Source: an uncultured Massilia sp. (GTDB taxonomy: Bacteria > Pseudomonadota > Gammaproteobacteria > Burkholderiales > Burkholderiaceae). Taken from it: DNA of 59,101 bases. Numbering within the stretch: position 1 is the first letter of the stretch; each line of letters starts with the position of its first letter. The DNA is taken from the NCBI GenBank assembly GCA_946481275.1, contig CAMLMV010000039.1, positions 1 through 59,101 of the forward strand. The letters are read 5' to 3'. The notes under the pieces are model-generated. The model did no database searches. It was not told the origin of the DNA and worked only from the letters and a program-made list of their open reading frames with translations. Below are positions 13,217-51,171 of this stretch, in pieces. The position numbers and the translations under genes were made by a program.

Positions 13217-14353
13217 TTGAATTATCGCACGCATATCGTTTCTTCTTTGTCCGAGATCGGGCAGGCGGACTGGGACGCCCTCGTGGCCCTGCAGGAGAAT
13301 CCGAACCCGTTCCTGTCCTTTGCCTTCCTGCATGCACTGCACGAATCCGGCAGTGCGACGCCGGAAACGGGCTGGCAGCCGCAATACATCGCCCTGTACG
13401 ACAAGGATGAGCGCCTGGCCGCCGCCCTGCCCCTGTACGTGAAAGGCCATTCGTACGGCGAATACGTGTTCGACTGGGCGTGGGCCAACGCCTACCAGGA
13501 GCATGGGCTCGACTATTACCCGAAGCTGCTGTCCGCGATCCCGTTCACGCCCGTGAGCGGCCCGCGCCTGCTCGCGCGCGATGCGTTCGCGCGGGCGGCC
13601 CTCGTCGACGTGCTCGTAAAGACGCAGAAGGCGACGGACGTCTCGTCCACGCACGTGCTGTTCCCGCCCGACGAGCAGGCGAAACAACTGGCCGATGCCG
13701 GCTTCCTGCTGCGCAGCGGCGTGCAGTTCCACTGGATGAATGCGGGCTACGCGACCTTCGACGAGTTCCTCGCGACGCTCGAGCAAAAGAAGCGCAAGAA
13801 CATCCGCGCCGAGCGGAGAAAAGTGCGCGAGGCCGGCATCTCGCTGCGGCGCGTGCGCGGGCCGGACATCACGAACGAGGAATGGCGTTTCTTCACGCGC
13901 TGCTACCGCAACACCTACTCCGAGCACTTCTCGAAGCCCTATTTGAACCTGGACTTCTTCCGGCGCATCGGCCAGACGATGCCGGACAACCTGCTGCTCG
14001 TCATCGCGGAACGGGGCGGCCACCCGATCGCGGCGTCGCTCGTCGTGCACGATGCGACGACGCTGTACGGCCGCTACTGGGGCGCGCTGGAACACGTGCC
14101 CTGCCTGCACTTCGAGACGGCGTACTACCAGCCGCTGGAATTCTGCATCGAACAGGGCATCCAGGTGTTCGAGGGCGGCGCGCAGGGCGAGCACAAGATG
14201 GCGCGCGGGTTCCTGCCGACGCGGACCTGGTCCGCGCACTGGCTCGCGCATCCGTCGTTCCTTGACGCCGTCGCGCGCTTCCTGGAACGGGAAGCGGGCG
14301 GCATCGACGACTACATCGACGAGCTCAACGACCGGAACCCGTTCCGAAGGTAA
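13217..14353 (+). CDS. FemAB/GNAT-like acyltransferase (peptidoglycan-related DUF482 type)
   Basis: The protein of about 378 residues matches the DUF482/FemAB_like family: [18 protein letters not shown] near the start, [39 protein letters not shown] and [17 protein letters not shown] followed by [15 protein letters not shown]. Members have a GNAT-like fold and are annotated as possible peptidoglycan or amino-acyl transferases; the actual reaction is unknown. No ATG fits the N-terminus. The TTG at 13217 (LNYRTHIV) has GGAAG five bases upstream and is the best start. The gene is divergent from nadE with only 27 bp between starts. Its last 29 bases overlap the 3' end of the CobN-like gene on the other strand. 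Confidence 0.85.
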
Positions 14354-17300
14354 CGGCGCGCCGGCGCCACACATAGCCGCCGCCGATCACGGCGACCGCC
14401 AGCGCCAGCACGACGAGCGCGCCGATGGTCTTCTGCACGGGCGTCATGGCCTTGACGCTTTCCATTTCGAAGCCGGCCACCTTGCCGTTGCCCGCCGGCG
14501 CGGGTTCCACGGCCTTGGCGGGTGCTGCCGGTGCAGCTGACACGCGCGGCGCCGCCCCACCCTCGCCGGGCGCCCGTCCCGCCAGCAGCGGCTGCAGGGT
14601 CAGCGTCGCGCGACTGCACGAATCCGCACCGCAGGCCGCGCCACCTTCCGCGACGGCGCGCGCGTTCTCGGCCAGCAGGCGCCGGCGCGTGGCATCGTCC
14701 GGTTTCCAGTACCCCTTCTCGATGGCCGACAGCATCCGGTCCGTGACGGCCTGCCACGCGCGCAGGTTGCCCGCCTGCGCGATGCGCTCGCGCACGCGCA
14801 GGCCGTGGCGGTCGGCGACGTAGGTGTCGTACATGCGCTGCCACGTCCCGCCGTCGACGGCTTCCGGCACCGTCACCTGCCATGCCCACAGGTAGTCGAC
14901 GACACGGTTGATGAAGCGCGCGCCGGAGTAGCCCTCGGCCAGCATCTTGTCGGCCCAGCGCGGGTTCAGGTAGCGGCTCTGCATCTCCTGGCCCATGTAC
15001 TGGTTCAACGTCTTGTGACCGGGGCGGCGCGGGTTCGACAAATCGCTCACGAGGACCTCGGGCGTCCTGCCGTCGACGCTGCGGATCGCCAGCGCCGTGC
15101 CGCCCAGGTACTGGAAGAAGTCATCGTTGTCGAGCGTCGCGAACAGGTTGCTGGACCGGCTGTGCAGCGCGATGCGGCTGCCGGACAGCGCGAGCCGGAA
15201 CACCTCGCGCCGGCGTCCCGCGTCGCCATCGTCGTCGCCCCAGTAGCCGTTGCCGAACGGGTGGCTCATGCGGTTGATGAACACATCCGCGACCTGTTTC
15301 TCGTCCTGCCACACGTTCGACAGCGGCAGCAGCTTCTCGATGTTGGTGCCGTACGCGCCGGACGGCAGGCCGAAGATGCGCACGCCCGCGAGGCGCTCGG
15401 CCTCGTCGGCGGGCACGCCTTCCTGGCGCAGCTTCGCGGCCGTCGCCCGCGCGTGCGCGGCCAGCACGTTGCCGCCCGGATCGTCGTCGTCCTTCTGCGC
15501 GCGGGCTGTTTGCGCGGCCTGGTCGAGCAGTTTCAGCACGTTGCCGAACAGGTCGCGGAACAGGCCGGACGACACCATCGTCACGTCCACGCGCGGCCGT
15601 CCCAGCTCGCGGCGGGGAATCGCCTCGACGCCGGTCACGCGTCCGCGCTCGTCCCAGGTCGGCCGCACGCCCATCAGCGCCATCGCCTGCGCTTCCATCA
15701 CGCCTTCGTGGCGCTGCGTCTCCACGCCCCACAGGTTCATCGTCAGCTTGTCGGGATACACGCCGTGGCGGCTGCGGTAGTCCTCGACGAGCTTCGTGGC
15801 CAGCTGCCGGCCCTGCTCGTAGACCGCGCGGCCCGGGATGCGGGCCGGATCGAGGCCGAAGAAATTGCGGCCCGTGGGCAGCGCGCCCGGATTACGCACG
15901 AGGTCCGCGCTGGGTCCCGTCGGGATGAATTTACCATCCAGCGCATCCACGAGACGGGCCAGTTCCGCCGCGGCGCTTGCCTCGATGTCCCGCTCCAGCT
16001 GCGCGGTGCGGGCCGCCTTGCCGGCGTCGTCGAGATGCGGTTCGAGACTCACGACGGCGCGTGCCGTCGCGGCACGCAGGTCGGGCGCGGGCGCCACGCC
16101 GAACGTGTGCAGGCCGAACGGCGTCAGTTTGCTGCCGGTGTCGTCGAGGTATTCCTCCAGCGCTTCCATGTCGGCCTCGGTGGACAGCGCCGGCTTGCCC
16201 ATGTCCTTCAGCACGCCCGCCTTCTTCGCGAGCGCGTTCAGCGCCGTCAGGTGCGCCTTCACGAGCATGGGGCTTTTCTGCTCGGCCACGCGGTAGTCGT
16301 TCAGCAGCGCGCCCAGCTCGCGCAGGTCCGGGTTCAGCCCGGCCGCGTCGAACGGCGGCGTCATGTGGTCGACGATCGTCGCCATGCCGCGCCGCTTCGC
16401 CTGGATGCCCTCGCCCACGTCGTCCATCACGTACGGATAGATGTTCGGCATGGCGCCGATCAGTGCTTCGGTCGGATCGCTGGCCGACAGGCCGGCCTCC
16501 TTCCCCGTCAGCCATTCCTGCGTGCCGTGCGTGCCCACGTGGACGACGGCGTTCGCGTGGAAACCGTGCTGCAGCCACAAATAAAACGCGATGTATTCGT
16601 GGCCCGGCGGAAGCGTCACGTCGTTGTGCAGCTTGGCCAGGTTCTGTTCCCACGCGCGGCCCGGCTGCGGCGCCAGCAGCAGATTGCCGTGACGGCGCGC
16701 GGGGAACACGAAGTGCGGTACGCCGCGCGCATCCTTCCACAGCACGGGCGACTTTTCCGGCGGCCCCCATGCCCCCTCGACGGCGACGCGCAGCTTCGCG
16801 GGCAGCGCGTCGTACCAGCGCCGGTAGTCCGCCAGCGGGACGAGCAGCGCTTCGCCGCTGGACGCCAGCCGCGCGAGGCCGGCCAGGTAATCGGCACCCG
16901 TCTTGCCGGGGTAGTTGCCCCATTGCTGGACCTCGCGCTGCAGTGCCGCCGGTGTCGACGGGTAGCGCTGATCGGTCGCGTAACCGACGGCACGCAGGCG
17001 TTCGGTGATCTGCCACAGGCTGTCCGGCAGCACGTTCAGGTAGGCCGCGCCGATCGTTTCGGAGCCGTGCGGATAATTGAAGTAGACGATGGCCACGTGC
17101 TTGTCCGCGTTGGGCGTGCGGCGCAGCGCGAGCCAGGCGTCGACGCGGGCGCGCAGGCGCACCACCCGTTCCGCAATTGGCTGCTCTTCCACGTACGCGA
17201 GCCCCGTCGCGGCATCGACGACCTTTTCGCGGCTCGCGACGACGGTCGGCTGCACGAGGCCCGCGACCTCGGCGCCGGCCATCTGCCACGTGCGCTCCAT

Positions 17301-18224
17301 CAGGTCCAGCCCGACCTTCGAGTCTTCCCATTGCGCCACGCCGTGCTGGCTCAGGGTGATCGCGTTGATGGCGGGGACGCCGATCCGGTCCAGCAGGGCG
17401 CCCGTCGCCGCGGTGCCGCCGACCTTCATGCCGAGCGCCACGAGCAGGTCGATGCGGCTTGTGCCGTCCGCCCCGAGGAACAGCTTCAACGGCACGTCGT
17501 ACGGATAGCCATATGCGGGCAGCACGTTGTAGCCCGCGCCTTCCAGCGCATGCACGATGGCCGCCAGCGGCAGGGTCTGGCCGGCCACGAGACTCGCGCG
17601 GTAGAACATCACGCCGATCCACGGCGCGCCCGGCCGGTGGTGCGCATAGTGCGCCACGTAGTCGTCGAACGACGCGGCGCCGCGGCGGGCGTCGACGTCG
17701 TACAGGCCGGCCTCCGGCATCGTGCGGAGCAGCGGTACGTCGACGCGGGCGCCGAAGCCGGCGACCAGTACGCGCCGCAGCAGGCCTTCCATGTTCTCGA
17801 TGCCGCCTTCGCGGTGGAACGCGAGTATCGCGGCGTCCGCACGGATGCCTTGCTCGCGCTGCGCGTCGTCCGGCTGCGCGCCGACGGCGTACACGGGCCG
17901 CGCGCGGCGCCGCAACGCCTCCAGGTCGGGCTGCACGAGCTGCAGCAACTGGCTGCCCTTGACGTTGACGACGGCGACGTCGGCACCGGCCAGCGCGGCG
18001 TGGTCGGCCGGGGTCATGCCGCTGGAGGGGATGATGCGCACGGCCACGTTGGCGGCTGCCAGGTCGGCCTGAAGCGCACGCACGGCCAGCACGGCAGGGC
18101 GCGATTCCACGTCGCCCAGCAGCAGCGCCAGCGTGCGCGGCGCGGCGTGGGCGGCCTGGCCCAGCACCAGCGCGGCCAGCAGCGCCAGCAAAAACGCGAG
18201 GCGGATGAACTTATTCGGGCACAT
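14325..18224 (-). CDS. CobN-like protein with signal peptide and C-terminal membrane anchor
   Basis: The 1299-residue protein belongs to the CobN/BchH large-subunit chelatase family. It keeps the core motif [15 protein letters not shown] near residue 560, the downstream [15 protein letters not shown], and the late region [18 protein letters not shown]. Unlike cytoplasmic CobN it begins with a clear signal peptide ([17 protein letters not shown], about residues 10-26). It ends with a Pro/Ala-rich linker, one membrane helix ([20 protein letters not shown]) and a basic tail. This predicts a periplasmic body anchored in the inner membrane. It is the last gene of a riboswitch-headed operon and overlaps the DUF2149 gene by 14 bases. 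No CobS or CobT partner is present. A role in corrinoid or cobalt handling is inferred from the riboswitch; a classic cobaltochelatase reaction is doubtful. Confidence 0.88.
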
Positions 18225-18543
18225 ACACGACCTTCCCGTCCGGCAGCTGGTACGCGGTGCCGAGGCGCTTGCCGGCGCCGGACAGCGGCTTGTCGGACAC
18301 GCGCGTGACCTTGATCTCGGCGCCCTTCTTCGTCATGACCTCGACCTTGCCGTCCGCGCCCTTCTTGGCGATCGTGACTTCGGACGCCGGATCCAGCAGG
18401 TCCAGCATGTTCCAGGCCGAGAACAGGGCGAGCATCATCGCGACGATGAACACGATGCTGGCGTCGAACAGGTTGGCGACGCCGGCGAGCGGATCCTCGC
18501 CGTGCGCGGCGTACTGGCCGCGGCGTTGTTTCAGGTAGCGCAT
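18211..18543 (-). CDS. DUF2149 protein, probable ExbD/TolR-like partner
   Basis: The small 110-residue protein has one membrane helix near the N-terminus (LFDASIVFIVAMMLALFSAW) followed by a soluble, probably periplasmic domain. The Asp at the start of the helix, in FDASIVF, recalls the single proton-path Asp of ExbD, TolR and MotB, and the gene is flanked by an ExbB/TolQ-like gene. I therefore infer a stator-type complex of ExbB-like and DUF2149 subunits. The soluble part (residues 50-110) has a Lys-rich stretch and ends [13 protein letters not shown]. It starts 7 bp after the ExbB-like stop and overlaps the CobN-like start. The DUF assignment is from recognition of the family pattern and context. 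Confidence 0.8.
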   Translation of the reverse strand: MRYLKQRRGQYAAHGEDPLAGVANLFDASIVFIVAMMLALFSAWNMLDLLDPASEVTIAKKGADGKVEVMTKKGAEIKVTRVSDKPLSGAGKRLGTAYQLPDGKVVYVPE

Positions 18544-18550
18544 GAGGGCC

Positions 18551-19111
18551 TCACTCGCGAACGGCCAGCGCCTGCTCGGCGGCGAACGCGACGTCCAGCA
18601 TGTCCGTGCGCAGCCAGTGCTCGCGCACGAGCGCCAGCACGTAGGCGAGCACGCTGCAGGCCAGGCCCACGACCGTCGCGGTGAACGCGGTCGTCATGTC
18701 CTGCGCCATGTGCGGCAGGTCGCCGTGGGCAAGGCCCGCGAGCGCGATGCCCATCGGGATCAGGGTGCCCATGAGGCCCAGCGCGGGGCCGATCCGCACG
18801 ACGAAGCGCACGGCGTCGAGGCGCCGCAGGCCGGCGCCCTCGGCGCTCTGCACGATGTGTTCGAGGTGTGCCTCGAGCGGCGCGGCGGCTTCGCGCAGGC
18901 AGGTGTCGATGGCGGCGCGGGCGCCGTCGACGAGCAGGCGCGCGCCGCGCCGGCGCTCGCGCCATTCGCCGAGGAAGGCGCCGAGGCAGGCCAGCATGTA
19001 CAGCAGCAGCGCGGCGATGGCCACGAGCACGGGCAGGTACAGGACGGTGGAAACGGAATACAGCACGGTTTCGACGGCGCGCACGGCGCCGTCAAAGGTC
19101 GGATCAGGCAT
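18551..19111 (-). CDS. MotA/TolQ/ExbB-type proton channel protein
   Basis: The 186-residue inner-membrane protein has a first helix (VLYLPVLVAIAALLLYML), a cytoplasmic helical loop, and the paired helices of the family. The signature is VVRIGPALGLMGTLIPMGIAL, then MTTAFTATVVGLACSVLAYVLA, which carries the conserved Thr/Gly packing of TolQ and ExbB. These proteins form the pentameric channel that converts proton flow into motion of an ExbD/TolR partner. The ATG at 19111 (MPDPTFDG) is chosen. The longer open frame to 19255 would run through the riboswitch expression platform and has no family match. It is the first gene after the cobalamin riboswitch. Confidence 0.88.
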   Translation of the reverse strand: MPDPTFDGAVRAVETVLYSVSTVLYLPVLVAIAALLLYMLACLGAFLGEWRERRRGARLLVDGARAAIDTCLREAAAPLEAHLEHIVQSAEGAGLRRLDAVRFVVRIGPALGLMGTLIPMGIALAGLAHGDLPHMAQDMTTAFTATVVGLACSVLAYVLALVREHWLRTDMLDVAFAAEQALAVRE

Positions 19112-19136
19112 GATTGAAGACGGTGACAGGCAATCC

Positions 19137-19189
19137 GCCCACTTCCCCGTGGGCGCGACTGGAACGGCGGACCTTCGCGAAGATCCGCC
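19137..19189 (-). promoter_or_regulatory. Expression platform hairpins between the riboswitch and the ExbB-like gene
   Basis: Two perfect hairpins lie between the aptamer and the start codon. One has GGCGGA at 19166-19171 pairing with TCCGCC at 19184-19189. The other has GCCCAC at 19137-19142 pairing with GTGGGC at 19149-19154. Neither is followed by a U-tract on the minus strand, so control of translation start is more likely than intrinsic termination. This is inference from sequence only. Confidence 0.5.
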
Positions 19190-19400
19190 ACCTGTCTGGC
19201 CGGTATCCGGGCTGGCAAGGCGGACCGGCCCACCTTCCCATGCGCGGCTGCGCACAGTGGTTCGAGGACCGGCCTGCCGTCGGAAGACGGCGCTTGCTTA
19301 CCGTTGCGGGGGCAGCACACCCTGGCGGACACGGAATCGTCCGCCATGTGTTTCCCGTTTAACTGCGTGTGCCGAACGCACGCGCGGGCACCAGACGGTG
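19189..19400 (-). ncRNA. Cobalamin (B12) riboswitch aptamer
   Basis: The minus strand shows the conserved blocks in order: TTAAACGGGAAACAC (about 19345-19362), CCCGCAACGGT (19300-19310), CCACTG (19255-19260), GGGAAGG (19233-19239) and the B12 box AGCCCGGATACCGGCC (19198-19213). A closing P1 helix can be drawn between CACCGTCTGG (19391-19400) and CCAGACAGGTG (19189-19199) with one bulged A. Adenosylcobalamin-type aptamers usually repress B12 uptake or synthesis genes when ligand is present. Here the element heads the ExbB-like, DUF2149 and CobN-like genes. Confidence 0.93.
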
Positions 19401-19403
19401 CGG

Positions 19404-19409
19404 ATTATA
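19404..19409 (-). promoter_or_regulatory. -10 element for the riboswitch operon
   Basis: A perfect TATAAT on the minus strand ends four bases before the first base of riboswitch helix P1, so transcription would begin essentially at the aptamer. It lies between the mocR stop codon (19415) and the aptamer. The matching -35 region falls inside the mocR 3' end and is weak. Confidence 0.55.
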
Positions 19410-24928: not shown

Positions 24929-24944
24929 TGTGCATAAATGCACA
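24929..24944. promoter_or_regulatory. Palindromic operator candidate 2
   Basis: TGTGCAT-AA-ATGCACA is a perfect 7+2+7 palindrome, about 105 bp upstream of the TonB receptor start. It lies 131 bp from site 1, which would suit looping between two dimers. Apart from the two palindromes and the half-site, I see no gene in the 24704-25048 region. Confidence 0.6.
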
Positions 24945-25048
24945 CCCTGTGGGCGCGGCGTTGTCTTTTCAGCCAAATTCATCCGAGGCACACTGTGATG
25001 CATGCGAAGACTGAACGCATGACACCACAACAAAATCAGGAGACCTCA

Positions 25049-27331
25049 ATGCGTCTTAGCAAGAAGAAACAGCAGCTGATCCAGCGCTCGGCTGCCGCCC
25101 TGCTCGTCCTGTCCGGCGGTGCCGCCGGTGCCGCGCACGCCCAGGATGCGGGCAGCGCCAGCGGTGCCGTCGCCGCACCGGAAGGCAATATCGAGAAAGT
25201 CGTCGTCACCGCGCGCCGGCGCGAGGAAACGCTGCAGGATGTCCCGGTGTCCGTTACTGCGTTCAGCGCCGACCAGCTCTCCAAGCAGGCCGTCCCCGAC
25301 GTCGTCGCCCTGGCGACGGCACTGCCGAACACCACCCTGAAGGCGTCGCGCGCCACCAACTCGACGCTGACGGCCTTCATCCGCGGCGTGGGCCAGGCCG
25401 ACCCGCTGGCGGGCTTCGAATCCGGCGTCGGCATCTACCTGGACGACGTCTACCTGGCCCGCCCGCAAGGCGCCGTGGCCGACATCTACGACGTCGAGCG
25501 CATCGAGGTGCTGCGCGGTCCGCAGGGCACGCTGTACGGCCGCAACACCATCGGCGGCGCCGTCAAGTACGTGACCCGCAAGCTGGCCCCGAAGACAGAC
25601 GTGCGCCTGCGCGGCACCCTGGGCAACTACCAGGAACGCGACGCGGTCATCACGGCCAGCACGCCCGTGGGCGAGCAGCTGCGCGTGGGCGGCACGGTTG
25701 CCCGCTTCAAGCACGGCGGCTACGGCACGAACCTGTTCGACGGCTCGCCGAACTACGACAAGGACCTGAAGGCCGCGCGCCTGTCGGCCGAATGGACGCC
25801 GACGCCCGACCTGTTCATCCGCCTCGCCGGCGACATCACGCAGGACGATTCGCATCCGAAGAACGGCCACCGCCTCATCGTGGGCCGCACGAGCGGCGCG
25901 CCGATCCTGTCCAACGTGTACGACTCGAATGCCGAGATGCTGACCGCCCTCGGCCACAAGCAGTCGGTGCGCCAGCACGGCGTCGCCGCCACGGTCGAAT
26001 GGAACGTGTCACCCGAGCTGACGTTCAAGTCGATCACCGCGCAGCGCCAGGACAAATCGTGGGCGCCGATCGACTTCGACTCCCTGCCCGTCGTCGACAT
26101 GGAAGTGCCGGCGCTGTACACGAACCGCCAGTTCAGCCAGGAATTCAACCTGACCTACACGGGTCCGAAGATCCAGGGCGTGGCCGGCGTCTACTACATC
26201 GACGCGAACGCGTACAACAAGTTCGACACGATCCTCGCGGGCGCCGTCCCGACCAGCACCTTCACGAGCGGCAACATCGACACGAAGGCGTGGGCCGCGT
26301 ACGCCGACGGCAGCTACAACCTGACCGATGTGCTGCAGCTGTCGCTGGGCGGCCGCTACACGGTGGACAAGCGCGAGGCCGACATCTACCGCCAGATCTA
26401 CCTGGGCCAGAAAGGCACGCCGGAGATGGGCAACCCGGGCGCGATCCTGTTCCGCACCGACACCGACCTGCGCGGCCTGGAGCGCGAGGACAAGAAGTTC
26501 ACCCCGCGCATCGCGCTGAACTGGAAGGCGCTGCCGAACCAGAACGTGTACGCGTCGTACTCGAAGGGCTTCAAGGGCGGCGGCTTCGACCCGCGCACAA
26601 ACGTGGTCGGCACGAAGATCCCGCTGACGCAGGCCCGGGCCGGCTACAAGCCCGAGACGATCGGCACCTATGAACTGGGCCTGAAATCGTCGTTCAACGG
26701 CGGCCGCATCACGACCAATACGGCCGTGTTCTACAGCGACTACAAGGACGTGCAGATCCCGGGCTCGGTGGCGATCGACACGAACGGCGACGGCAAGGAC
26801 GACAGCTTCGCGGGCATTACGACCAACGCCGGCAAGGCCAAGATCAAGGGCTTCGAATTCGAGGCCGTGGCCCACCTGACGAAGGAATTCTCGCTGTCCG
26901 GCATGTACAGCTACATCGACGCCAAGTACAACGAGTACATCGTGGCGGGCGTGAACGTGGCCGACCAGCGCCACTTCCAGAATACGCCGCGCAACTCGGC
27001 GAACCTGCGCGCCACCTACGAGGTGCCGATGCCGCTGGCGGGCTACAACGGCCGCCTGTCGCTGATCGGCAGCGCGTCGTACCGCGGCCAGACATACCAG
27101 TTCGAGACCCCGTCCGTCATCGACCAGGACGCGTACAAGCTGTATGACGCCAGCATCGTCTGGACCCGCGCCGACGGCAAGATCCGCGCCGGCATCCACG
27201 GCAAGAACCTGTCGGACGTGCACTACAAGACGGCGGGCTACCTGTTCCCGACGCTGGGCAACGAAGGCACGCTGACCGCCTTCTACGGTGCTCCGCGCAC
27301 CGTGCAGGGGACGATCGAGTACCGCTTCTGA
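25049..27331 (+). CDS. TonB-dependent outer-membrane receptor
   Basis: The 760-residue receptor has a signal peptide (basic MRLSKKKQQL, a hydrophobic run and AAHAQ). A TonB-box-like KVVVTARRRE follows, then a plug domain with the typical VPVSVTAFSADQL, FIRGVGQ and VERIEVLRGPQGTLYGRNTIGG. A beta-barrel ends in the aromatic terminus GTIEYRF. The style matches iron-pirin/CirA-like receptors that often carry organic substrates rather than siderophores. The ATG at 25049 has AGGAG six bases upstream; the longer frame from 24938 would overlap the second palindrome. It is the first gene of a run that continues through a hydrolase and a Liv-type ABC transporter. The substrate is unknown. Confidence 0.92.
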   Translation: MRLSKKKQQLIQRSAAALLVLSGGAAGAAHAQDAGSASGAVAAPEGNIEKVVVTARRREETLQDVPVSVTAFSADQLSKQAVPDVVALATALPNTTLKASRATNSTLTAFIRGVGQADPLAGFESGVGIYLDDVYLARPQGAVADIYDVERIEVLRGPQGTLYGRNTIGGAVKYVTRKLAPKTDVRLRGTLGNYQERDAVITASTPVGEQLRVGGTVARFKHGGYGTNLFDGSPNYDKDLKAARLSAEWTPTPDLFIRLAGDITQDDSHPKNGHRLIVGRTSGAPILSNVYDSNAEMLTALGHKQSVRQHGVAATVEWNVSPELTFKSITAQRQDKSWAPIDFDSLPVVDMEVPALYTNRQFSQEFNLTYTGPKIQGVAGVYYIDANAYNKFDTILAGAVPTSTFTSGNIDTKAWAAYADGSYNLTDVLQLSLGGRYTVDKREADIYRQIYLGQKGTPEMGNPGAILFRTDTDLRGLEREDKKFTPRIALNWKALPNQNVYASYSKGFKGGGFDPRTNVVGTKIPLTQARAGYKPETIGTYELGLKSSFNGGRITTNTAVFYSDYKDVQIPGSVAIDTNGDGKDDSFAGITTNAGKAKIKGFEFEAVAHLTKEFSLSGMYSYIDAKYNEYIVAGVNVADQRHFQNTPRNSANLRATYEVPMPLAGYNGRLSLIGSASYRGQTYQFETPSVIDQDAYKLYDASIVWTRADGKIRAGIHGKNLSDVHYKTAGYLFPTLGNEGTLTAFYGAPRTVQGTIEYRF

Positions 27332-44091: not shown

Positions 44092-44258
44092 CAGCACTAC
44101 TCTCCAAGTTGTACGACGCGCTCTCCCGACGGTCGTCAGGTTGTGTTCGCTCAAATGTCACTCAAGCATGAGCTTGAATAATTACAAGGTTTCCCAGCGC
44201 AACGCTTGGGGATACCCACCGTGCACAGAGCGTGATGAACCTGGAAGGGGTACGACCG

Positions 44259-47057
44259 ATGGCAGATCCCGACATCGCAAGAACGTTCGCCGAAGTCCAA
44301 TATGTGCTGAGAGATCGGCACCGGCCGCTTCGTCTGCTTCTGGATGGGATGACCAAGGCCGGAAAGGAACCGCTCCTGCCGCAACGAATAATCGGCAGCG
44401 AAGCGATCTGTGGCGGATTCAATTTCCGGATGCTGTGTGTGTCCGAGAGCGCGACCCTGCCCCTCAAGACCTTCATCGGTGTGCCTGCCGAACTGCAAAT
44501 CGTCACCGACCGCGGCCAGCTACGCCGCATTTGCGGACTGGTCACCGAGGCCTCTTCGGGCCAAAGCGACGGCGGACTCGCCACATACCAGTTGACCATG
44601 CGAGACGCACTATCGGTGCTGGAACACAAGGTCAACACGAGGGTGTTCCAGGGCAAAAACGAACTGGACATCATTCAGATACTGGTCGGCGAATGGCATA
44701 AAAACATGACGGTCCTGGGAGCATCGTTTGATTTGGCAATCGATGCCAGCCTCTCCAATCGCCGGTTGCCGAAACGACAGTTCATCATGCAACACAATGA
44801 GTCGGATGCCGACTTCGTCCGTCGGCTGCTACAGAGACGGGGAATCGCCTGGTGCTTTCGCCCCGGGCTGATGACCGGCGCCGGCGTATCCGGAAGCGGG
44901 CGAACGGAATCAAGAATTGGGCATACCTTGATACTGTTCGAGGATTCGAGTCAACTCAACCAGAACGCCGCCGGGACGGTGCGGTTTCATCGTGACGATG
45001 CAACTGAGCAGCGCGACACCATCACCGGCTGGAGCGCGGTGCGTACGCTTCGTTCGGGAAATACGTCCTTATTCAGCTGGGATTACCTTCAGCCCGGCAA
45101 TACGATGTTCATGACGGCACAGGTGCCGGCGCAAGCTGATCAGGGCGAGCAAGGCAACCAGCTGGCGGCGGGACTGGACGAATACCAGTGCACAGCCCCG
45201 CATATCGGGGACAGCCCGCGCGATCTGTCTGAGCTGAACGATACGCAGATGGCTTACCACGAGTACGCTGCAAAATGGTTCAAAGGTGAAGGCAGTGTTC
45301 GCGACCTGGCAGTTGGCGAGTGGTTCAGTCTTAAAGGTCATCCTGAAATCGACACCCATCCCGACAGCGAGCGGCAGTTCGTCGTGACGTCACAGCATAT
45401 CGTTGCGGAGAACAACCTACCGGTGGAAATTGGCGCACGTGTGGAGCGGCTCTTCGAACGCAGCGGCTGGGCTCGCGACACGACTGCGCTGCAGCGGAGC
45501 GACGAAAACCAGAAGCTGCGCTACAAGACAAGCTTCACGTGTGTTCGTAGAAGCGTCCGCATCGTGCCACCTTGCCCCGTCCTGCCCCGCCCGCAACTGC
45601 AGTCGGCAATTGTCGTCGGACCGGAAAACGAAATTGTGTGGTGCGACTCGCTGGGCCGTGTCAAAGTCCGCTTTCTTGCCGCACGTCCGGAAGATCATGC
45701 GCATGCAGCGGGCGCGGGCAGTTCCGATTCGGATCGCGACTCGGCTTGGGTACGTGTCGCGTTCAGCTGGGCCGGTAATGGTCCCGGAGCCCGCCTCCTG
45801 CCCCCTGTCGGAACCGAAGTGCTGATCGATTTTGCTGGCCGCGATCCCGATAAGCCCGTCATCATCGGCCAGGTGTACAACGGTAATTCGCCGCCGCCCG
45901 TGTTCGTTGGAGAGGACGCGTTGCCCGGTACCCGCTACCAGTCCGGCCTGCGCAGCCGGGAGATTCGCGGCCGACGCGGGAACCAGCTTCGGCTGGACGA
46001 TACGACCGGCCAGATCAGTGCGCAGTTGGCCAGCGACCACGGTAAAACGGAGCTGAACCTTGGCTATCTCACTGAGCCGCGTCGGGAGGGTGGCGCACGC
46101 CCACGCGGAGACGGTGCCGAGTTACGCACCGACGAAGCGATCGCTTTACGCGCCGCGCGCGGTATCTTGCTGAGTACCTGGAAACTGCTCGACGGCTCGG
46201 GCAGTAAGGCTCCGCAACTTGCACGCAACGAATACCTCGACCTGCTGCGCGAATGCGGAGAACTGTGCACTTCACTCGGTAACTACGCAGCTGAGCACAA
46301 TGGCATGGCGATCGATGCCAAGGAACAGGAAGCACTGCGTGCACGGTTCAAGAACTGGGAGGACGGAAGCAACACCGCGCCCGACGCCGCCGAGCCAAGA
46401 GAACCAGTCGTTGCGGTGACCTCGCCGGCCGGGATCGGCTTCGCCAGTTCCAAGGCCATCGTCAGCTACTCGGCCAGCAACGTCGACACCACTGCGCAAC
46501 AGCATCTGCAACTCACGGCGGGCCAGCGTTTTGCAGTCAATGCCGGCAATGGCATCTCGCTCTTTGCCCGCGGCGGCGGACTCAGTGCGATCGCGCACGT
46601 CGGAAAAATGCTGGTGCAAAGCCAGCATGACGACATCGCTGTCAACTCGGCCAAGGACATTCAGGTGACCGCCAGCGAAGGCTCGATCACGGTATCGGCC
46701 AAGACCATCCTCCTGGTTGCACAGGACGGCTCATTCCTCAAGCTCGGGGAAGGATCTCCGGTCCTCGGGAGCAAGGAGGCCCTCGAGTTCCACGCACCCG
46801 ATTTCATTTGGGATGGCGCCGAGACGATGAGTGCACAACTCCCTGCCTTCAAAAAGGACGGGACGGATCTCAAGTTCGAACCCCGGCTCTACCCCAATCT
46901 CGACGGTGGCGTGCCGGCGGCCGGATTGGTCTACAAGATCGAATCTGCGGCCGGCGGCGGCGCGGGCCAAACCGACGCGCAAGGGACGACCTCGACCTTG
47001 AAACACGACCAAATGCACGTTGCGAGCATTGAACTCAAGGAGGAAGACCAGCCATGA
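44259..47057 (+). CDS. vgrG: Type VI secretion tip protein VgrG (with DUF2345 domain)
   Basis: VgrG trimers form the puncturing tip of the type VI secretion needle and carry effectors. The protein of about 932 residues has the gp27-like N-terminus with the VgrG marker NESDADFVRRLLQRRGIAWCF (about residues 180-200), and an OB/gp5 region with RVKVRF and PPVGTEVLIDF...DPDKPVIIGQVYN. A DUF2345 beta-helix follows (about 710-870: VTSPAGIGFASSKAIVSYS, TLLVAQDGSFLKLGEGS style). It ends with a tail that probably recruits the next gene product. The ATG at 44259 has GGAAGGGG eight bases upstream; GTG/ATG at 44232-44235 are alternatives. No T6SS structural genes are nearby, so this is an orphan VgrG module. 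Confidence 0.93.
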   Translation: MADPDIARTFAEVQYVLRDRHRPLRLLLDGMTKAGKEPLLPQRIIGSEAICGGFNFRMLCVSESATLPLKTFIGVPAELQIVTDRGQLRRICGLVTEASSGQSDGGLATYQLTMRDALSVLEHKVNTRVFQGKNELDIIQILVGEWHKNMTVLGASFDLAIDASLSNRRLPKRQFIMQHNESDADFVRRLLQRRGIAWCFRPGLMTGAGVSGSGRTESRIGHTLILFEDSSQLNQNAAGTVRFHRDDATEQRDTITGWSAVRTLRSGNTSLFSWDYLQPGNTMFMTAQVPAQADQGEQGNQLAAGLDEYQCTAPHIGDSPRDLSELNDTQMAYHEYAAKWFKGEGSVRDLAVGEWFSLKGHPEIDTHPDSERQFVVTSQHIVAENNLPVEIGARVERLFERSGWARDTTALQRSDENQKLRYKTSFTCVRRSVRIVPPCPVLPRPQLQSAIVVGPENEIVWCDSLGRVKVRFLAARPEDHAHAAGAGSSDSDRDSAWVRVAFSWAGNGPGARLLPPVGTEVLIDFAGRDPDKPVIIGQVYNGNSPPPVFVGEDALPGTRYQSGLRSREIRGRRGNQLRLDDTTGQISAQLASDHGKTELNLGYLTEPRREGGARPRGDGAELRTDEAIALRAARGILLSTWKLLDGSGSKAPQLARNEYLDLLRECGELCTSLGNYAAEHNGMAIDAKEQEALRARFKNWEDGSNTAPDAAEPREPVVAVTSPAGIGFASSKAIVSYSASNVDTTAQQHLQLTAGQRFAVNAGNGISLFARGGGLSAIAHVGKMLVQSQHDDIAVNSAKDIQVTASEGSITVSAKTILLVAQDGSFLKLGEGSPVLGSKEALEFHAPDFIWDGAETMSAQLPAFKKDGTDLKFEPRLYPNLDGGVPAAGLVYKIESAAGGGAGQTDAQGTTSTLKHDQMHVASIELKEEDQP

Positions 47058-49411
47058 CCACCGCAAAGAGCGCATCGCTTTACAAGAAACTGCCATTCAG
47101 CCGAGGTAAAGGGCAAGGCGTTACTTTGCCCGGACAGGGAAACAAGAAGATCGTCGGCGTCAGGCACAACCTGCCCGGCTCCATCATCCTCGTACATGGC
47201 GTGAACGATGTGGGCGTCAGTTACGACGCGGTGGAATCGGGTTTGTGCGAAGGGCTGGCGGAAAGGCTGTGCGGCGAGCTGACGCCGGGTACGTATCGCA
47301 TGCCGCAAGCCGCCGACCGCGACAAGTTGGAGGAAGATCCCGACGACGTTTTCTACAAGCGTAAGATCGGCGACGATACGCACAGTCCGGTTATTCCATT
47401 CTACTGGGGGTTTCGCGAAGAATCAGCGCACGTGCAGGACTGGAGAAAAACACCGCACGGCCAGGCGGCCGATCGGTACGGCAACCGGTTGGACAGGGAT
47501 TATTCGAAGGAAGGCGGACCGTTCGCCAACGCGACATCCTCGCTACCGGAGATGTGGAATCGGGGCAAGAGCGATGCATACGGTGCCCTGGACTGGGCAT
47601 CTCGCGATGCGACCCACCCCATCCTGAAAAACCCCGGCCGGCTCTACATGATCCTGGCAGCGCGACGACTGGCCGCGCTCATCTCGATGATCCGCGACTA
47701 CGACGAAAACGAAACAGTCTCGATCGTCGCTCACAGTCAAGGATGCTTGCTCAGTCTGCTGGCCCAGGCCTTTCTGCTCGACCCAAAGATGCAAAATGAC
47801 CAGCCTGGCGCACGCCCGGCCGATACCCTGATCCTATGTAACCCGCCTTACAGTCTGGTCGATGAGTTGCCGGCGGCTGCGGCTATCGCCAACGGATATT
47901 CGGGTTCGGACCCGCTGATGACGACAAAACAGGACCGTTACAAATACATCAGCGGTAGCCAAACATTGCATGCACGCCTGACCACGCTGGCGAATATCGT
48001 CAGTGGCGTTCACGCCAAAAAGCATCAGACGCCGGCATTGGCGGAATTAACCGACACGAAAAAACATATGGGCGCGGTCGGCCCCAAATGGGATGCATCC
48101 CTAGACCGGGATAACCGGGGAAAAGTCTACCTTTATTTTTCTCCAGAAGACATGACCGTGGCATTCGCCGGTGTCGAGGGTATCGGCTGGCAGGGCGTGC
48201 CTGATTTCCAACGCGGCCACCGCCATGACTCCGGTCCAGTCAACGCAAATGCATCGATTAAAAATTCTGGACCGCCCCATTCCGTACCGACGATGGAGAC
48301 ACGCAAACCTCTTTCAGAGCTGGGGCCGGGATTCTTTCAACGCGTTTTCACGCTGAAACGTAGACCTGATTTCCGAAATGGAAAGCCGGTTCTGGTCGGG
48401 CAGCCTCCGCATGATTTTGCGCTCCGGGTTCCCGGCGAAGATGACCACGCCCATACAGCCGCCAGCGATACGTTGATGAGCAATCACGCTCTGCGCGAAC
48501 ACTTGCCCATCACCGGCGACACCCCGAGCGACTTGTCTCCCGAAGAGCGCGCGCGATTTGGCCTGCGCCGCATCACCGGCGAGGCCTTGTCAAAACCGGT
48601 CCTGGCGAGCATGGGCGAAGGTGCCTTCCCCGACGCACAGCGTCGCTATGCCGCCAGCGAAAACATCGATCAAATCGACGCAGCCATCTCTGTGACCAGC
48701 GATTACGGCATCGATGGACATCGTTGGGAATGCATCGCGGATCCAGGCGGCACTGCGTCAACATTACGAGGCTATCAACCGGTTACAAGCCCTCGTCCTG
48801 GCCTGCATGCCGGCAGAGTGGCAAAGCTCAACGAACAGCGGCAGGCGGTGACGGAAAAGCTCAATCGCGACAAGAAGGTCGAAGACAGGTGCCAGGTCAA
48901 GAGCGTGTACGTTTGTCTGGAGGTCGGATTCGAACGCCCGCTCAATCCTCCCAAGCTGCTGATCGAACGGACCGAAACACCGAACGAAGCCCGGCTGCGC
49001 TGGCAAAAGACGAGCACGGCGCGCTCGTTCCACAGCGCGATTTACGGTGGGCGCAAGAATCACAGTCAGGTAACTGCGTACGACGTGGCGATTGGTGGTG
49101 GCAAGGCGCCTACACATCCGCTGTTTTACAAATACTTATGTGCGGTTGCGGATTGGCGGCTGAAAGACCCGAACGAAAAAGATCCACCACGACAAGGCAT
49201 CCTTAAATGGAGCAATTTCCTAGAACAATTTGCAGTCTACTGGGCAGACGAGCGGGCTTGGCGCAAGAAGCTAATCGAAGATAATAAAACTTATTACTCA
49301 ACCGGAGAATTACCCGCCGATCTGCCACTGCCGCCACAGGGGCTTCCACAGTGCCTTGTAGTCGAATCGATGGCTACAACAATCGAGAAGACTGCGCGAG
49401 CGTATAAATGA
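47054..49411 (+). CDS. Tle3-like type VI lipase effector (DUF3274 type)
   Basis: The 785-residue protein has an alpha/beta-hydrolase core: SIILVHGVNDVG as the oxyanion region and a nucleophile elbow IVAHSQGC with Ser228. The large C-terminal region is poorly conserved. The gene order (vgrG, this gene, Tla3-like gene, PAAR) matches Tle3 phospholipase modules such as the VgrG2b cluster of Pseudomonas aeruginosa. It has no signal peptide, as expected for a needle-delivered effector. It would attack phospholipids in the periplasm of target cells. Start and stop overlap the neighbours by four bases each (ATGA), so vgrG, tle3 and tla3 are coupled. The acid and His of the triad cannot be placed with certainty. 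Confidence 0.8.
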   Translation: MTTAKSASLYKKLPFSRGKGQGVTLPGQGNKKIVGVRHNLPGSIILVHGVNDVGVSYDAVESGLCEGLAERLCGELTPGTYRMPQAADRDKLEEDPDDVFYKRKIGDDTHSPVIPFYWGFREESAHVQDWRKTPHGQAADRYGNRLDRDYSKEGGPFANATSSLPEMWNRGKSDAYGALDWASRDATHPILKNPGRLYMILAARRLAALISMIRDYDENETVSIVAHSQGCLLSLLAQAFLLDPKMQNDQPGARPADTLILCNPPYSLVDELPAAAAIANGYSGSDPLMTTKQDRYKYISGSQTLHARLTTLANIVSGVHAKKHQTPALAELTDTKKHMGAVGPKWDASLDRDNRGKVYLYFSPEDMTVAFAGVEGIGWQGVPDFQRGHRHDSGPVNANASIKNSGPPHSVPTMETRKPLSELGPGFFQRVFTLKRRPDFRNGKPVLVGQPPHDFALRVPGEDDHAHTAASDTLMSNHALREHLPITGDTPSDLSPEERARFGLRRITGEALSKPVLASMGEGAFPDAQRRYAASENIDQIDAAISVTSDYGIDGHRWECIADPGGTASTLRGYQPVTSPRPGLHAGRVAKLNEQRQAVTEKLNRDKKVEDRCQVKSVYVCLEVGFERPLNPPKLLIERTETPNEARLRWQKTSTARSFHSAIYGGRKNHSQVTAYDVAIGGGKAPTHPLFYKYLCAVADWRLKDPNEKDPPRQGILKWSNFLEQFAVYWADERAWRKKLIEDNKTYYSTGELPADLPLPPQGLPQCLVVESMATTIEKTARAYK

Positions 49412-51171
49412 GGGTGATCCATAGAAAACGTCCAATAGCAGCAGGGCAAATATTTAACATCTTGTTTGTCCTGCTGGCGCGTGCACTACTCTTTACAACT
49501 TCAATTAACGCAGTCGCGGCATCGCTGCAAGCGGAGAAGACAATGGGCAAACCATGGTGGCTGTTGGCGGCAGTGTTGGGTATTGGGTTGATACTAGGTG
49601 GGCGCTGGGTCATAGCGGTGCGCGATGCCGACGCTCGACAGGAGCAGGCTTCGGCTGCGGCAGCGATGCTACGTGAACAGGCCGCGACGCAGACTGAGCA
49701 AGGACGGCATGAATATGTTCTGGAAGTGATCAATCTGGGCGTTACTTTTGACAAGTTCCGGCAAGGCAAACTATGGGACGCGCTGCAATCTGGCGCTCCG
49801 TACACTTCGCTTCGCGAACATGATCCTAAAAAATACCCTTGGACGATGTTTGACAAGCTCGGCCTAAGCGGCGGGCGAAGTGGCGACACCTTGGAGAACG
49901 GTGCCGGCTATACGGTCACGGAATGGGGCACACCAGTCTTCAATGCAAGACCCCGGGACCAGAGCAGATTCGCTGGCAACCCGCTAATGCCAGACATGGG
50001 TATCGCCAGCTCGGCTGAGTCATCCGGAATGTCTACCAGCCTGTTTGTGGCCGGTCCAGCTCGCTTCGACGAACGACCAGATCGCATCCTCGAGGACGTT
50101 TTCCTTTTCTTCGATACCAATCCAGATGTCCCTTACATCGTCTTAAATTCGGACGACGGCATGACAGTTCGTGACGTATCCCGCCCACCTGGCTCGCCAT
50201 CGCTCGTCAAGGAAGGCTACTATGTCCCCGAAATGCCCGACTCGTCAGCGCTTTTCGTCCTCGCCCGCCGCGAGCGGGTCGATCCGATCCGTCCTTTTAC
50301 CTACGAGGATATCGACGATTACCGAACCCCGATGGAGGTGCTCAATCGCGATGGGGTCGCGAGGAGACTATTTTTAGGCTATCTCGACTTGCAGAAATCG
50401 GTACCCAAGCCGAGCGCTCCCAATATACCGAGAAGCCGCACGATAACCGCTGCCGAATGGCTCGAATTCGCCGCAAAATTCAGCAAACGCCCGGACATCC
50501 GCGGCACCGGCCAGATCAGCTTCCTTGACCGCGAATTCAACGCAAAGCACCGCCCACCACTCGACTGGAAACCGACTCCCTGGTTCCCCATCCCATGGAG
50601 CAAACTACAGCTTCAACAATTCGACAGCATGGCAACGCTCGGCTTCATCCACCGACCAGTTTTCGTCAAGACCACGGACGAGCACGGCAAACCGCTCCCC
50701 CGGCGCGATGCGCGGCAAAAAGCGCTGATGGAAGGCCTGCAGGAAGCACTGCGCACCCTGCCCGAAACCGAGCGCGCCAAGGGTCCGGCGCGCGTGATCG
50801 CCGCTACGAATAATCAAACGGAACAACTGGTCGCCCTGGAAGGCATGCTGCACCAGTACGCCGCGCAAGGCGGTCCCGACATCGACAGCGGCAAGCTCGA
50901 CCAGTTCATCAACATCGACCGCCGTCTCGGCAATACCGGCGCGGCTACTCTGTTCATGCAAATGGCGATCGGTGTAATGGGCAGCTATCGCGCCGGTGGA
51001 CCAAGCCTCGCTGTCAATTTGCGCGATCCGCACGAGGCGACGTTTATTTTCATCAGTCCGCCTTCCGAAGAAAAGCGCAAAGCCCAGCAGGAATCGCGCG
51101 GTGACGTGTTCCGTAGTATCAAATCGATGGCGCCCCCTGCAGAGAGCGACGCTGCCACGGCCGTCAAATAG
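49408..51171 (+). CDS. Tla3-like (DUF2875) type VI lipase adaptor
   Basis: The 587-residue frame matches the DUF2875 family, members of which act as adaptors (Tla3) that load Tle3 onto VgrG. Landmarks are GAGYTVTEWGTPVFNARP, DVFLFFDTNPDVPYIVLNSDDG and RTITAAEWLEFAAKF. It has a membrane helix (WWLLAAVLGIGLILGG) and, if the first ATG is used, a second hydrophobic segment before it (IFNILFVLLARALLF). The ATG at 49408 overlaps the Tle3 stop codon. The ATG at 49543 (MGKPWWLL) has GGAGA five bases upstream and is an equally likely start. The family and order are known; the membrane location in this protein is a prediction. Confidence 0.78.
   Translation: MRVIHRKRPIAAGQIFNILFVLLARALLFTTSINAVAASLQAEKTMGKPWWLLAAVLGIGLILGGRWVIAVRDADARQEQASAAAAMLREQAATQTEQGRHEYVLEVINLGVTFDKFRQGKLWDALQSGAPYTSLREHDPKKYPWTMFDKLGLSGGRSGDTLENGAGYTVTEWGTPVFNARPRDQSRFAGNPLMPDMGIASSAESSGMSTSLFVAGPARFDERPDRILEDVFLFFDTNPDVPYIVLNSDDGMTVRDVSRPPGSPSLVKEGYYVPEMPDSSALFVLARRERVDPIRPFTYEDIDDYRTPMEVLNRDGVARRLFLGYLDLQKSVPKPSAPNIPRSRTITAAEWLEFAAKFSKRPDIRGTGQISFLDREFNAKHRPPLDWKPTPWFPIPWSKLQLQQFDSMATLGFIHRPVFVKTTDEHGKPLPRRDARQKALMEGLQEALRTLPETERAKGPARVIAATNNQTEQLVALEGMLHQYAAQGGPDIDSGKLDQFINIDRRLGNTGAATLFMQMAIGVMGSYRAGGPSLAVNLRDPHEATFIFISPPSEEKRKAQQESRGDVFRSIKSMAPPAESDAATAVK

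Follow-up and report, generated by a model that had tools for sequence, protein, structure and literature searches.

CobN of the aerobic CobNST system is a cytoplasmic protein with the AAA+ partners CobS and CobT. Another kind of relative is membrane-anchored: HmuS of Bacteroides is described as a membrane-bound heme dechelatase (PMC12583661; papers are cited here by PMC number), and is encoded together with HmuU, which is ExbB-like, and HmuV, a DUF2149 protein (PMC10434189, PMC13227078). HmuU and HmuV have been described as ExbB/ExbD-like, HmuV is said to appear diagnostic of heme transport, and cobalamin riboswitches have been reported before hmu-like operons, for example in B. fragilis, with a role in cobalamin suggested (PMC10100974, 2023). 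A Geobacter plasmid has a cobN-exbB-exbD-tonB cluster beside cobamide genes and without CobST, and its description mentions no riboswitch (PMC3403914, 2012). A third CobN type, BtuS, is credited to Rodionov 2003 (PMC6460266). Here, we analysed a 59,101-nucleotide stretch (hereafter, the window) of contig CAMLMV010000039.1 from an uncultured Massilia sp. (assembly GCA_946481275.1), in which a cobalamin riboswitch heads genes for an ExbB-like protein, a DUF2149 protein and a CobN-like protein (Table 1).

This trio is a further member of the published machinery, in a B12-controlled form for which our searches of the open-licence literature found no tested function. An earlier note, made from the sequence of the window, had proposed a proton-motive-force-powered machine that remodels, loads or passes corrinoid or cobalt in the periplasm; such a trio has precedents, as HmuS-HmuU-HmuV has the same architecture and hmu-like operons with B12 riboswitches are published (PMC10100974). 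Like the hmuYRSTUV operon of Bacteroidota, the window pairs ExbB-like and DUF2149 partners with a CobN-type protein that is membrane-anchored, has the same predicted six-domain fold and keeps the catalytic histidine (His538 of HmuS); unlike it, the window has a B12 riboswitch and a DDxxQ motif, and no HmuY, HmuR or HmuT in the operon. We also found the HmuS gene together with the HmuU and HmuV genes in a region of B. finegoldii. The B. fragilis hmu-like operons, likened here by description and not by sequence, have the same machinery and the same kind of riboswitch, but they belong to Bacteroidota and have two HmuR copies, whereas the window has a bare trio in a betaproteobacterium (PMC10100974). 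On plasmid pSZ77 of Trichlorobacter (Geobacter) lovleyi (NC_010815.1), the CobN-like protein aligns to 86% of the window protein at 47% identity, and the DUF2149 protein is 70% identical; unlike in the trio of the window, receptors, DUF2162 and an ExbB-ExbD-TonB set lie within the cluster. The PA1922-PA1925 genes of Pseudomonas aeruginosa, also compared by description, comprise a gene for a TonB receptor beside cobN-like and exbD-like ones (PMC4542158, PMC8531726) but, unlike the window, are under zinc-starvation (Zur) control.

The CobN-like protein is distinct from both CobN and HmuS

The CobN-like protein scored 946 bits against PF02514 and missed all the NCBIfam CobN equivalog cut-offs (for example, 822.7 against 1248 bits and 562.9 against 822 bits). 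Hydropathy analysis gave only two hydrophobic segments, at residues 6–24 and 1267–1285, unlike CobN of the aerobic CobNST system. A C-terminal hydrophobic segment was absent from annotated CobN (judged by eye) and from three BchH-clade proteins. In the trees the protein stood apart from CobN, and the HmuS homologues formed a clade of their own (approximate likelihood-ratio test (aLRT) value of 100). It is a member of a membrane-anchored class I chelatase branch that is paired with ExbB/DUF2149 proteins, and not a standard CobN. The signal-like start and an Arg run after the last helix indicate that its body probably lies in the periplasm. The earlier note had placed it there; the export and anchor segments agree with this, and the side on which the body lies is read from them.

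The predicted six-domain fold is common to the CobN-like protein and HmuS. The HmuS of B. thetaiotaomicron has 1469 residues, 170 more than the window protein (PMC12583661). HmuS is marked by an insertion rich in methionine, some 120 residues long. The catalytic His538 of HmuS, in the motif HFG(T/A)HG, is retained as His566 in HVGTHG, with Phe replaced by Val, and is invariant in a 17-member alignment. The second active-site motif, DDFFQ, matches CobN (DDYYQ, DDYFQ) and differs from DHVYE of HmuS. Both His1209 and Glu1212 of the HmuS stretch LSLDHxxEFMGG are replaced, and the heme ligands Met79 and His254 correspond to Lys and Val in an alignment with three HmuS homologues, one of which also lacks Met79. 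Thus, unlike in HmuS, the heme ligands and the second active-site His are not present, and this pattern of residues fits corrin more than heme. Identity with HmuS was rejected on the residues and the clade. The DHxxE form was also observed in Azospirillum L158, located beside iron ATP-binding cassette (ABC) transport and siderophore receptor genes, and in its relatives L102 and L103.

Two further observations concern this protein. Cys1198 and Cys1203 do not vary across either the 17-member or the 41-member alignment, and are not found in Verrucomicrobiota or in members of a second type described below; the pair could possibly form a disulfide or a metal site. Two paralogues, L101 8919-12869 (+) and the second CobN-like open reading frame (ORF) of L075, have another sequence (WVSLFSNIVLQPG) in place of the catalytic GTHG stretch, and that of L075 adjoins an intact copy.

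The putative stator pair follows the CobN-like protein more closely than the receptor

The ExbB-like protein matched PF01618 (39.2 bits; cut-off 22.9) and has three hydrophobic regions, while the DUF2149 protein matched PF09919 (102.7 bits) and has a single hydrophobic segment. These matches support the earlier proposal that the first two genes encode a proton-channel pair. Asp27 of the DUF2149 protein lies within the transmembrane helix, which is followed by a short tail, and is invariant across 17 diverse members. A profile comparison aligned it weakly on the ExbD Asp (probability 51, 19 columns). The DUF2149 protein had no match to ExbD/TolR PF02472, PF09919 alone being reported at E 0.001. 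Profile searches of the PDB gave one match for the DUF2149 protein, at E = 1, which was taken as chance, and none for the ExbB-like protein. The DUF2149 protein is likely to be an ExbD-like stator partner and the equivalent of HmuV.

The order ExbB-DUF2149-CobN was kept in 66 of the 68 loci having all three genes. Where the upstream sequence spanned 1.5 kb or more (68 loci), both stator genes lay at most 2.5 kb away in 64. Receptors vary in position and are absent from some loci; a TonB receptor was present somewhere in 53 of the 61 loci with at least 5 kb upstream. We compared pairwise distances in the 31 non-Oxalobacteraceae loci that have all four genes. The distances of the CobN-like protein correlated with those of the ExbB-like (0.85) and DUF2149 (0.75) proteins, and the distances of the nearest receptor correlated with those of the CobN-like (0.42), ExbB-like (0.36) and DUF2149 (0.30) proteins. 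Given CobN, the correlation between stator and receptor was near 0, and the jackknife difference was 0.46 to 0.55.

In T. lovleyi, a MotA-DUF2149 pair and an ExbB-ExbD-TonB set occur in one cluster. Methanosarcina acetivorans, which has no outer membrane, gave profile matches to PF09919 and PF01618, and none to ExbD PF02472. It also matched PF09930 (DUF2162), for which one of two archaea, not specified which, was above the cut-off. Two BtuS copies are reported in M. barkeri (PMC10846266).

The conserved gene order, the correlated distances and the double set of T. lovleyi favour, short of proof, a stator that works for the CobN-like protein, as its motor, over one that works for a receptor. 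The powering of receptors in the manner of TonB-ExbBD, which the earlier note had used as its model, appears less likely.

Distribution of the trio and its link to cobalamin riboswitches

We surveyed 80 named loci. Of these, 23 belong to Oxalobacteraceae and were read with a riboswitch-core pattern (their whole genomes, except that of L024, were also scanned with Rfam), 47 others were scanned with Rfam, and ten, namely the fragment L026 and nine short contigs (L035, L037-L040, L043, L047, L071 and L079), had no Rfam scan. For L100-L103 and L107-L109 the riboswitch was sought by the pattern scan only.

A riboswitch core was located upstream in 22 of the 23 Oxalobacteraceae loci, in 21 directly before the ExbB gene and in L019 before a receptor. 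The exception was L028, where the only listed RF00174 match of the genome appears to lie ∼11.5 kb upstream, presumably on the same contig. Among the 47 others, RF00174 was upstream on the operon strand in 16 (for example L048, just before a TonB receptor), and in L073 it was on the opposite strand, beside a divergent receptor. RF00174 was also upstream in L104, L105, L106 and L110 (Rfam). The riboswitch-linked members fell into three separate clades in the trees: that of the window, that of a second CobN-like type and that of L104. The scanned stretches of L068, L070, L072 and L083 (Verrucomicrobiota), L077, L082 and L085 (Bacteroidota) and L045, L054, L057 and L067 (Methylomonas) yielded no riboswitch. 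The tie of the trio to corrinoid supply, made in the earlier note, is supported.

Other corrinoid genes accompany some loci. In L104, one riboswitch is followed by genes for a receptor, Peripla_BP_2, FecCD and ABC-ATPase proteins (BtuF-, BtuC- and BtuD-like, respectively, by Pfam family), ExbB, DUF2149, the CobN-like protein and CobO/BtuR. The gene order in L110 is CobO-CobB-CobN-ExbB-DUF2149. A CbiZ-type gene was present in 11 of the 61 loci with at least 5 kb upstream.

A second CobN-like type was observed in L105-L109, from five genomes of the genus of the window, and in L110. In L105-L109 its best segments are 37–41% identical, it stands under a riboswitch (by Rfam for L105 and L106, by pattern for the rest) and its active-site pattern is GRHST and NDAFD. 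The order in L105 is CobN-ExbB-DUF2149-like-receptor-PepSY protein.

On a plasmid of Runella slithyformis (L161 4575-12609), genes for a receptor, a NicO-like protein, ExbB, DUF2149 and a CobN-like protein lie within a hyp hydrogenase maturation cluster. The NicO-like protein was a weak match, below the cut-off, and the module could possibly be a nickel version. That DUF2149 genes also accompany B12 riboswitches, and hydrogenase maturation genes in Runella, speaks against HmuV as a diagnostic of heme transport.

Corrinoid capacity of the hosts

The 80 genome handles stand for 78 distinct genomes (G001/G062 and G031/G080 have identical coordinates), many of them of unestablished completeness. 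Host genes were read in G001 and G031, the genomes nearest to that of the window. Among 57 distinct genomes carrying a CobN-like module, 24 had CobJ, a corrin-ring enzyme, above the cut-off. Within the genus of the window CobJ was above the cut-off in none of the seven positive genomes (two of the window type, five of the second type) and in 6 of 21 negative ones, numbers too few for a claim. CobS was above the cut-off in 4 of the 80 handles, none of them Oxalobacteraceae, and 18 more had sub-cut-off matches only; in G001 and G031 CobS had no match, and CobT was not searched. For MetH, 73 of the 80 handles were above the cut-off; every one of the 28 genomes of the genus was among them, the seven positive ones included.

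Because CobJ is above the cut-off in none and MetH in all of these seven genomes, the kin of the window seem to need corrinoid yet to make no ring, and free cobalt would be of little benefit to them. On the CobJ and CobS searches, a tie between the trio and CobS-dependent synthesis was rejected for the kin. The earlier note had set the trio apart from such synthesis. With respect to CobS this stands; corrin-ring synthesis, however, does co-occur with the module in some of the distinct genomes, though not in the positive genomes of the genus.

On another contig of G001, a BtuB-like gene (451.7 bits, against an equivalog cut-off of 599.7) stands with CobO and CobB behind a riboswitch of its own; at the same place G031 has BtuC-like (205.5; cut-off 334) and CbiB-like genes. 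BtuD and BtuF were not confirmed in these two genomes. As the closest genomes have BtuB- and BtuC-like genes elsewhere, the trio looks like an addition to the usual B12 uptake genes. The earlier note had read no BtuB or BtuCDF gene from the sequence; that the trio replaces these uptake genes is unlikely in the nearest genomes, where the matches to BtuB and BtuC are below the equivalog cut-offs. A third riboswitch of the nearest genomes (L115 9373-13463 (-), L117 2307-6347 (+)) heads another receptor gene; next come genes for two small proteins that begin with a signal-like segment and have a CPxC motif, and that we take to be DsbA-like.

Organization of the locus

RF00174 matched at full length (gathering score 31.5, E 3e-14) and was the sole Rfam match of the window at gathering scores. 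The ExbB-like and DUF2149 ORFs are separated by 7 nucleotides and the DUF2149 and CobN-like ORFs overlap by 14, confirming the earlier description of a cobalamin riboswitch at the head of three closely spaced or overlapping genes. The ATG at 19111 was chosen as the start of the ExbB-like ORF; longer in-frame starts are present, and no strong Shine-Dalgarno sequence was seen.

Table 1. Features of the riboswitch-headed operon in the window
Feature	Position	Strand	Basis
Cobalamin riboswitch aptamer RF00174	19181..19409	-	Rfam, 66.5 bits, model 1-189 of 189
Candidate expression platform (hairpin between the aptamer and the ExbB-like gene)	19166..19189	-	94% palindrome
ExbB/MotA/TolQ-like proton-channel subunit, 186 amino acids	18551..19111	-	PF01618, hydropathy
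DUF2149 protein, 110 amino acids	18211..18543	-	PF09919
Membrane-anchored CobN-like chelatase, N-terminal signal-like segment, 1299 amino acids	14325..18224	-	PF02514

Because no T run follows the hairpin in the sequence, translational control of the operon is suggested rather than intrinsic termination. The 97-nucleotide leader folded with a z value of -1.88, and 9 of 200 shuffles were equally stable. A gene for a MocR-type regulator ends upstream of the operon on the same strand, and downstream a convergent FemAB-like gene overlaps the end of the CobN-like gene. No near match of the window operon on a plasmid was found. Elsewhere in the window, Pfam matches indicated a further TonB-dependent receptor gene (24938-27328 (+)) and a type VI secretion lipase set (44232-51168 (+)), in which genes for a Tle3 phospholipase and a Tla3 adapter come after VgrG.

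A possible corrinoid-handling chelatase and the alternatives

From the genes, the riboswitch, the hydrophobic ends, the predicted fold, the active-site pattern, the gene order and the correlated stator-chelatase distances that we observed, we infer a periplasmic body, a corrinoid substrate and a motor role for the stator. Among the class I chelatase machines with membrane anchors, of which the heme dechelatase HmuS is the studied member, the trio may represent a branch for corrinoids. When B12 is scarce, the riboswitch would permit expression of the operon, and BtuB-type receptors encoded elsewhere would pass corrinoids over the outer membrane to the CobN-like protein. With both its ends in the inner membrane and its body in the periplasm, this protein would be worked upon by the ExbB-like/DUF2149 pair, a proton-driven stator doing conformational work in a job parallel to that of the ATP-driven CobST or ChlID motors of the cytoplasmic relatives. 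Its body might act on the corrin ring and the metal, by metal exchange or insertion or by reductive release of a ligated corrinoid, and the corrinoid would then move onward to a BtuC-type permease. The reading as a chelatase that handles corrinoids in the periplasm and has a proton motor of its own is, in our estimate, about equally likely to be right or wrong. The full proton-driven chelatase we put forward tentatively, considering it rather doubtful. The same degree of doubt attaches to the idea that one and the same motor-chelatase unit has been adapted to heme, to corrinoids and perhaps to chelates of nickel and zinc, the window having a B12-controlled form.

Several observations weigh against this proposal. 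The riboswitch was found in none of 30 of the 47 other named loci, many of which belong to the clade of the window, although some contigs are too short and that of L034 possibly ends just before it. The DDxxQ motif also occurs in L099, L100 (by pattern only), and the Diaphorobacter and Pseudoalteromonas members, where no B12 link was found. The predicted structure is closer to HmuS (Foldseek TM-score 0.79) than to CobN (0.73). Because a related module sits in the nickel-hydrogenase maturation cluster of Runella, the clade does not fix the substrate. To our knowledge, no B12-linked member has known biochemistry. Porphyrin release from heme persists in a btuS1 btuS2 double mutant of B. fragilis (PMC6460266). 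With regard to the motor, purified HmuS is active with NADH without a stator (PMC12583661), the ExbD similarity of DUF2149 spans 19 columns only, and its structure model is of low confidence (pLDDT 60), too weak for use. In 9 of the 23 Oxalobacteraceae loci the gene directly downstream encodes a receptor, and the receptor correlations with all three proteins beat nearly all permutations (exceeded in 0, 0 and 3 of 2000). The co-evolution signal may reflect only inheritance as a block, and the M. acetivorans genes are known by presence, their adjacency not having been seen.

Among the alternatives, the CobN-like protein could strip cobalt or another divalent metal from imported corrinoids or metallophores, and free Co2+ would be taken up for B12 synthesis, with the riboswitch serving cobalt supply. 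HmuS does strip iron from heme (PMC12583661), and related modules lie near iron transport genes in Azospirillum, with the sub-cut-off NicO-like protein in the Runella cluster, and in the Zur-regulated PA1922-1925 operon (PMC4542158). Furthermore, DUF2162, a predicted transporter, occurs in 13 of the 38 non-Oxalobacteraceae loci with at least 5 kb upstream, and CobJ is above the cut-off in 24 of the 57 distinct positive genomes. Nevertheless, DUF2162 was present in none of the 23 Oxalobacteraceae loci, and the kin need corrinoid and seem to make no ring; plain cobalt scavenging is therefore argued against there. Removal of cobalt from a corrin is also chemically very hard, and we regard this explanation as fairly improbable. 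Alternatively, the ExbB-like/DUF2149 pair could power BtuB-type receptors, with the CobN-like protein as a periplasmic corrinoid binder. This agrees with the way HmuU/HmuV are drawn (PMC12583661) and described as ExbB/ExbD-like (PMC10100974), with the frequency of receptors in the loci and directly downstream, and with the weak receptor-stator correlations (0.36, 0.30). These correlations vanish given CobN, however, and the trio lacks TonB, a gene for which was nearby in 3 of the 61 loci (narrow model). G001 has its own ExbB-ExbD genes, T. lovleyi has a full set in the same cluster, and an archaeon has DUF2149 and an ExbB-like protein, making this explanation unlikely in our view.

Two other identities appear far less probable. 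A heme dechelatase, HmuS proper, placed by chance under a B12 riboswitch would share the operon logic and the fold, but Met79, His254, His1209 and Glu1212 are all replaced, no HmuY is in the operon, and the HmuS homologues form a separate clade (aLRT 100); we consider this very unlikely. Least credible is a standard cytoplasmic CobN that serves aerobic B12 synthesis and has the other two genes beside it by chance. CobN is indeed the best PDB sequence match (429 bits, against 393 bits for HmuS), and many homologues are named CobN in the sources. Set against this are the missed equivalog cut-offs, the hydrophobic segments at both ends, the position apart from CobN in the trees, and closest genomes without a CobS match or CobJ above the cut-off.

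If the proposal of a stator acting as a chelatase motor is true, reactions of tetrapyrroles and metals beyond the cytoplasm would gain an energy source of their own, and a role would be found for HmuU and HmuV, little-understood parts of the heme operon. The proposal would also account for a family named cobaltochelatase CobN in public records, and would add an extra step to corrinoid acquisition by B12-dependent bacteria.

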